Positions 564-1,201 of a stretch of DNA of 28,426 nt are shown here, piece after piece. Below the pieces are notes generated by a model. That model saw only the letters and a program-made list of their open reading frames with translations, searched no databases and had not been told where the DNA came from. Numbering within the stretch: the stretch's first letter is position 1; each line of letters opens with the position of its first letter. The translations under genes and the position numbers were made by a program. The stretch is taken from the IMG/VR virus record IMGVR_UViG_3300017527_000601, positions 1-28,426 of that record; one strand, 5' to 3'. This stretch comes from a virus.

Positions 564-591
564 TTGACATATCATTTTATTATTATATAAT
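564..591 (+). promoter_or_regulatory. Sigma-70 promoter, rightward early operon
   Basis: TTGACA (564-569) and TATAAT (586-591) are both perfect matches with a 16-bp spacer. The boxA-like sequence at 613 and a roughly 160-nt leader precede the first gene at 760. The stretch 405-563 upstream has no supportable gene, only an imperfect hairpin between about 436 and 500 (GGGGATGT pairing with ACATCTTCCCC). Confidence 0.85.
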
Positions 592-612: not shown

Positions 613-626
613 TGTTCTTTGACAAT
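613..626 (+). promoter_or_regulatory. boxA-like antitermination site
   Basis: The sequence TGTTCTTTGACAAT differs at two positions from the E. coli rRNA boxA form TGCTCTTTAACAAT. It lies about 15 nt downstream of the expected start of the rightward transcript, where a Nus-factor loading site would be useful. BoxA recruits NusB/NusE and helps RNA polymerase resist termination in rRNA and some phage operons. The role here is inferred from sequence and place. Confidence 0.5.
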
Positions 627-713: not shown

Positions 714-738
714 ATAGATGCCTAACAATGGCTAGCCG
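714..738 (+). repeat. Left arm of 25-nt inverted repeat flanking a gene
   Basis: This arm is complementary to 1177-1201 over all 25 positions if two G-U pairs are allowed (23 of 25 are Watson-Crick). It ends 21 nt before the start codon at 760. It also contains GGCTAG (730-735), which can pair with CTAGCC (754-759) directly before that start codon, enclosing the ribosome binding site AAAGGAG. Confidence 0.85.
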
Positions 739-759
739 AAACCAGAAAGGAGACTAGCC

Positions 760-1170
760 ATGATAAAACATCTTAATAACGTAAACGTAGCCGGTGGCAA
801 GTTGCCAGATGGATTCTCGGTCAAGATCGACATATCCATAGATTATGACGGTATATCCGAAGGTGAATTGATCGCTCGGGTTACATCAGGTCAATCCGAT
901 CGGGTTAGGATTCAGACTATGTTGAGGGCTATGACACCTGCCCAGTTGTTAAAATTCGGGTCTGATGGATATGAAATCCGATGGAATGAAATCGGTAAAA
1001 CTCGGGTCGACGATCATCTGGCAGTAATGACCTACATGCAACTTCACGAAACATTGTCCGGTTGGGGTCTTGATGATAATGAGATCGTTAAGGTCTATGC
1101 AACAAAACACGGTATTAGTGTTGAAGAATCACAAGCCAAGTTCGAGGAATTACTTGACGAAGCAGAATAA
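760..1170 (+). CDS. Unknown acidic protein, first gene of the rightward operon
   Basis: A 136-residue protein that I do not recognise. Its start at 760 is preceded by AAAGGAG at 747-752. The N-terminal half looks like beta strands (SVKIDISIDY, GELIARVTSG). The C-terminal half is helical and very acidic, ending EESQAKFEELLDEAE. No cysteine cluster, signal peptide or membrane segment is visible. Codon use is more GC-rich than in the following small genes, as in the gene at 5792, and both follow strong promoters, which suggests high expression. The gene is bracketed by the 25-nt inverted repeat 714-738/1177-1201, and its start lies in a possible hairpin, so translational control is likely. Function unknown. 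Confidence 0.8.
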   Translation: MIKHLNNVNVAGGKLPDGFSVKIDISIDYDGISEGELIARVTSGQSDRVRIQTMLRAMTPAQLLKFGSDGYEIRWNEIGKTRVDDHLAVMTYMQLHETLSGWGLDDNEIVKVYATKHGISVEESQAKFEELLDEAE

Positions 1171-1176
1171 CTAACC

Positions 1177-1201
1177 CGGCTAGCCGTTGTTAGGTATCTA
1201 T
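1177..1201 (+). repeat. Right arm of 25-nt inverted repeat
   Basis: It begins 6 nt after the stop codon of the upstream gene and pairs with 714-738. It can instead fold on itself: CGGC-TA-GCCG (1177-1186) inside CTAAC (1171-1175) and GTTAG (1189-1193). No T-run follows, so it is not a classical terminator. Confidence 0.85.

Follow-up and report, generated by a model that had tools for sequence, protein, structure and literature searches.

A phage gene of 136 codons is enclosed by a long RNA helix formed by its two flanks, and comparison of sequences indicates that this arrangement recurs in dozens of phages and is no local oddity. We read it as an mRNA switch with an rRNA-operon-like leader, which would be silent while it is being transcribed and whose start site would be freed once the 3' end of the message exists; we assign this reading a probability of roughly 0.58. 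The helix is established comparatively, and how it acts we infer.

Results

A helix around the first early gene

The window (the whole stretch of DNA analysed) is a virus record of 28,426 bases with phage gene content. PHROGs and Pfam matches identify a family A DNA polymerase whose N-terminal domain belongs to the uracil-glycosylase superfamily, a DUF3987 primase, a ParB-methylase fusion, PD-(D/E)XK and AAA proteins, and one very large SLT-domain protein. Rfam gave no RNA family match anywhere in the window. The nearest annotated genome by polymerase (43% identity) is that of Desulfofustis phage LS06-2018-MD01, whose terminase small subunit is matched by the minus-strand ORF at 1-288. A divergent region separates this ORF from the enclosed gene (760-1170, plus strand, ATG start), which opens the rightward early cluster.

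The initial annotation had described complementary flanks at 714-738 and 1177-1201. Their pairing is complete (25 of 25 positions, two of them G-U, with a duplex energy of -43.8 kcal/mol), and an extra A-U pair between 713 and 1202 extends the helix to 713-738 for the 5' arm and 1177-1202 for the 3' arm, both on the plus strand, with 26/26 positions paired and two G-U. The stop codon lies 6 nt upstream of the 3' arm; the 5' arm ends 21 nt from the ATG, and the ribosome-binding site AAAGGAG occupies 746-752. These arms are the best 25-nt inverted repeat spanning up to 1 kb in the window, with 23/25 Watson-Crick pairs against 20 in the best of five Markov shuffles. With a stem score of 61 they surpass the top score in each of 60 further Markov shuffles (top scores average 24.4 and peak at 48), and the minimum-energy fold of the whole window transcript contains the helix. 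The hairpin that the 3' arm had been said to form by itself is weak: the fold of 1150-1215 holds only a 3-bp CGG/CCG helix inside the arm.

Upstream lies a sigma70-type promoter with exact consensus hexamers (TTGACA-16 nt-TATAAT, 564-591, plus strand). Between promoter and helix sits the boxA-like element GTTCTTTGACAA (614-625, plus strand), an exact match of the rRNA-leader type that the initial annotation had missed; with variants, it is found upstream of the 5' arm in most relatives. The 20-nt form GTTCTTTGACAATTGAATAG occurs in 85 bacterial stretches, rRNA leaders and spacers among them. Of the 80 loci listed out of these 85, 14 have a 23S start downstream and 11 have a 16S start, 18 reach the end of their contig within 700 nt, and the other 37 gave neither start. 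The 16S and 23S starts downstream argue that this boxA is of the rRNA-leader type, though not exclusive to rRNA. In the 37 remaining loci (within L193-L269) the rRNA-type boxA precedes other stretches, often alike between species, which are perhaps other non-coding RNAs; PMC5725501 reports boxA outside rRNA at suhB and at a toxin gene.

The gap between boxA and the 5' arm is 87 nt in the window; among the 21 leaders of set 1 (defined below) that have the helix, it is at most 11 nt in 12. This intervening stretch shows no general structure beyond chance (z of 0.06 in the window, -2.97 in L115, -3.06 in L113, and -1.57, -0.04 and 1.18 at three more loci). The order of promoter, boxA and helix is the layout of an rRNA operon, placed around a protein gene.

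Recurrence across phages

Used as a direct query against viral_contigs, genome_contigs, phages and plasmids, the 136-aa protein found no relatives, a DNA search returned only short matches at the promoter, and the primase as query gave nothing useful. A polymerase alignment led to 80 IMG/VR loci. Among 80 records then searched we found three clear homologs of the window gene and one weak homolog. All three clear homologs have complementary flanking arms, whose sequences are unrelated to those of the window. A search for the same bracketed gene at other loci, a check proposed in the initial annotation, finds it bracketed 3/3 times, and different genes are bracketed too.

We then tested the flanks of every predicted gene in 40 early-region stretches and in further loci. 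Unrestricted duplex energies proved too noisy (-38 kcal/mol or lower in 286/982 cognate and 4698/17422 non-cognate flanks). They were replaced by a stem score, which reached at least 48 in 17/982 cognate versus 48/17422 non-cognate flanks; L131r 7805, a local hairpin, was dropped from this test, and low-complexity arms were left out of the inverted-repeat survey of relatives. Set 1 comprises 23 promoter-plus-boxA leaders with their first gene, drawn from boxA-like matches and picked partly by eye when some stems were already known; L101 and L002a are further additions by eye. At a score of at least 32, its cognate flanks pair in 20/23 cases versus 5/506 for non-cognate flanks; at 44 or more the counts are 15/23 and 0/506. 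One further locus (L109) qualifies once its start codon is moved, which brings the total to 21/23, and the two exceptions (L104r and L100r) have boxA and no helix.

To avoid selection by eye, two further samples were fetched by the promoter-plus-boxA pattern alone. Before counting, 7 and 6 loci near a contig end, 19 and 20 near-duplicates, and 15 and 19 loci without a predicted gene were dropped. First-gene flanks scored at least 32 in 18/40 loci of the first sample (non-cognate 12/1560) and in 12/33 loci of the second, set B (non-cognate 15/1056); more than half of the pattern-sample leaders have boxA without a helix. A homolog of the window polymerase was found in 8/30 records of the pattern-derived loci, many of these records being fragments.

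Pooling gives 51 loci with a helix, 49 of them distinct at 85% first-gene identity. Arm sequences are unrelated between these phages, and the helix has a median length of 24 bp (range 13-36). By blastp the first genes fall into 26 groups, the window's gene belonging to one of 22 members, which argues that the helix is not bound to one gene family, even if some singletons may be highly diverged homologs. In most of set 1 the 3' arm begins 2-32 nt past the stop codon and the 5' arm lies 14-40 nt ahead of the ATG, so that the ribosome-binding site and the stop codon are left free. In 39/40 loci the helix is part of the minimum-energy fold predicted for the full transcript.

The 5' arm as a predicted anti-start element

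The initial annotation had proposed a competing hairpin at the start site of the window gene, through 730-735 and 754-759. Folding predicts it in slightly larger form, with AUGGCUAG (728-735) paired to CUAGCCAU (754-761), start codon included. In the fold of the leader alone, 713-727 stay free as a toehold while 728-735 are paired to the start site. The start-site segment CTAGCCAT (754-761, plus strand), as the predicted partner of 728-735, is a rival of the 3' arm.

We calculated an opening cost, the predicted energy in kcal/mol required to open the Shine-Dalgarno and start codon, with the arm free or withheld from local pairing. For 20 loci of set 1 it falls from 10.3 for a free arm to 3.0 for a withheld one, and non-cognate arms give 6.5 (p = 5e-5). 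In 19 boxA-pattern loci the corresponding values are 9.2, 2.8 and 5.3 (p = 2.6e-4). Seventeen of these 19 came from the first pattern sample (counting L138) and two, L184 and L154, from another fetch; the near-duplicates L165, L186 and L353 and loci scoring below 36 were left out, and L130r, whose arm is far from the start, was excluded from the test of set 1. For the 39 loci pooled, the cost is 9.8 with the own arm versus 6.6 with the own arm shuffled (p = 1.9e-9), and 2.9 with the arm withheld. The effect is weak in the 12 loci of set B (8.3, 4.0 and 6.6; p = 0.046) and absent in single loci, for example L109, L316, L322 and L325. In 14/39 loci the leader is predicted to fold so that fewer than five nucleotides at the front of the arm stay unpaired and could serve as a toehold. 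All these values come from folding predictions, whose errors are large.

The models thus suggest two mutually exclusive partners for the 5' arm: the start site as long as the 3' arm has yet to be made, and the 3' arm thereafter. In the helix state the start site is predicted to be open. Of the two directions raised at the outset, release of translation by the 3' end gains support from the comparison across phages, with the anti-start part weak in the third sample.

Discussion

Proposed mechanism

The unit is ordered as a strong promoter, an rRNA-type boxA, the 5' arm, a ribosome-binding site, the gene, its stop codon and the 3' arm, and the helix fits closely around the translated part. Before the 3' arm emerges, the 5' arm is predicted, with statistical support, to fold over the ribosome-binding site and start codon, and the nascent gene would remain untranslated. 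A masked start without trailing ribosomes would expose the message to Rho; boxA, by recruiting NusB-S10 and partners, would shield the untranslated RNA as it does in rRNA. In antitermination complexes described in PMC10250234, the NusG C-terminal domain is bound to S10, so coupling to a ribosome would be hindered as well. The boxA complex may also keep the 5' arm close to the polymerase exit; the short gap in 12/21 leaders means that the complex could keep the arm at hand for the 3' arm. On emerging, the 3' arm would take the 5' arm from the start site to build the long helix and leave the start open, with the consequence that only complete messages would be translated. RNase III may then cut the helix, which is about two turns long, and fix the open state.

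Alternative explanations

A one-gene mobile cassette bounded by terminal inverted repeats would also present a single gene flanked by inverted repeats. The arms, however, are unrelated between phages, the same place holds different enclosed genes, and no target-site duplication was seen by eye outside 713 and 1202; the exact 25-nt arm is absent from viral_contigs. Pair composition points the same way. In the arms of set 1, with G-U and A-C scored alike, we counted 54 G-U versus 8 A-C (p = 1.7e-9), and the pattern-derived sample of 19 has 27 versus 10 (p = 0.008). As a G-U pair in the sense strand is an A-C mismatch in the antisense, it is the sense RNA on which selection acts. This G-U excess across phages bears out the initial suggestion of selection on RNA rather than DNA, and we reject the cassette, whose probability we consider negligible. 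The covariation expected among relatives is seen in part. Between two closely related loci (L303 and L353, with 79% identity across 763 aligned columns), inspection of the arms by eye shows one C-G to U-A double change and two G-U to A-U changes; one pair is lost, and one position is unpaired in both.

The helix might instead be a processing stem only, cut by RNase III as in pre-rRNA to part the gene's message from the boxA leader and later genes, with any effect on the start site secondary. Its median length is about that of the rRNA leader-trailer helix, the order of boxA and then helix is that of rRNA as outlined in PMC10250234, and enclosed genes stand in tandem in L109, L113, L125 and L130. 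Such a stem leaves unexplained why the 5' arm matches its own start better than foreign or shuffled arms do, and we hold it to be unlikely. That the helix is an OFF state, its joined ends keeping the message inert until 3' trimming as in type I toxin mRNAs, seems improbable to us. The precedent is aapA3, which according to PMC6733600 works by 5'-3' pairing together with nascent hairpins that mask the start; its long-distance pairing covers the Shine-Dalgarno, whereas the phage helix takes in neither the ribosome-binding site nor the start, and both are predicted to be more open when it forms. The enclosed proteins are 51-306 aa long and mostly of one phage family, and no toxin match was found among them. 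The helix ends near the stop codon and the ribosome-binding site, as it would if it guarded the message from exonucleases or recycled ribosomes by holding stop and start together, with no switching; the anti-start pairing and boxA would then have no explanation, and this reading is quite improbable.

Relation to known systems

PMC10250234 describes E. coli rRNA operons in which boxA is combined with a leader-trailer helix (more than 17 bp are needed) that RNase III cuts. The phage unit resembles this leader in that complementary flanks downstream of boxA enclose a single transcribed unit, with a similar helix length. It differs in that it encloses a protein gene with a ribosome-binding site and not an rRNA (no Rfam match), and in that its 5' arm is predicted also to mask the start site of the enclosed gene. 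With aapA3 and hok it shares a nascent hairpin that hides the Shine-Dalgarno (predicted for the phage) and 5'-3' pairing once the RNA is complete. The polarity is opposite: end pairing means OFF in aapA3 and hok and is predicted to open the start in the phage. Unlike in type I toxin mRNAs, the phage helix is not expected to sequester the Shine-Dalgarno, since the predicted opening cost drops without the arm.

In synthetic toehold switch riboregulators, a hairpin that sequesters the start site is opened by strand displacement. The predicted phage hairpin and displacement are alike, whereas the phage element is natural and its trigger is the 3' end of the same message. The lambda N leader holds a nut site, an RNase III hairpin and the N gene. 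It too has boxA in an early phage leader before the first gene, with a possible RNase III step; its hairpin is local and it requires boxB and N, whereas the helix described here spans the gene (lambda nut sites are covered in PMC10250234).

Our literature search, mostly without subscription papers, did not find a gene-enclosing helix described in a phage message. We rate the element as categorically new, with component parts that are already known, and we see even odds that it represents a new and widespread class of phage RNA, with an rRNA-leader layout on protein genes and translation switched on by the message's own 3' end. If so, the first viral protein would be made only from complete, uncoupled transcripts, and this would be a natural bacterial mechanism that deliberately uncouples translation from transcription and checks the message for completeness before it is read. 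Phages would be expressing their first genes with a transcription layout that their host uses for rRNA. The element would depend on structure and not on sequence, would be portable among unrelated genes, and would offer a cis-acting, sequence-programmable translation switch from simple parts.

Enclosed proteins and further observations

The window protein has no known family in PHROGs or Pfam, nor an N-like match. Its AlphaFold2 model is confident (mean pLDDT 85, from 19 aligned sequences) and shows two strands followed by helices, with no fold match at E of 0.001 or below in PDB or BFVD. For ten further proteins (nine from early genes, either of relatives or of the window, and one paralog-like) the only PHROG matches were weak and of unknown function, the best at E = 0.0018. 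A later early gene of the window (5792-6121) is similar to several enclosed first genes in their C-terminal part, with the motif DPVxAxxAxFxGM, and is perhaps their paralog.

Only one stem in the window scores higher than the helix, at 83: a larger imperfect inverted repeat with arms of 79 nt (1422-1500 and 1591-1669), which lies between early genes and is built of units with a period of roughly 9 nt. Most relatives also have large gene-free repeats resembling it. In 16 of these, 66 G-U and 25 A-C were counted, a ratio that does not decide between the RNA and DNA levels because the arms were chosen by a score that favors G-U.

Several loci carry more than one unit. In L109 (6292-7853), a single early region holds four tandem helices, and at least three of these surround a predicted gene. 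In the reverse complement of L325 two units follow one another (4071 and 4463), each with a promoter, a boxA and a gene-enclosing helix to itself. Downstream of the 3' arm in L112 (after 3282) and L127r (after 4151), inspection by eye shows a terminator-like hairpin with a T run, so that the enclosed gene may be monocistronic there. The element would also help to locate first early genes. In a Desulfofustis phage (L002, OP947158.1), an unannotated ORF of 153 codons at 42356-42817 on the plus strand lies inside a 15-bp helix, in a region annotated with minus-strand ORFs.
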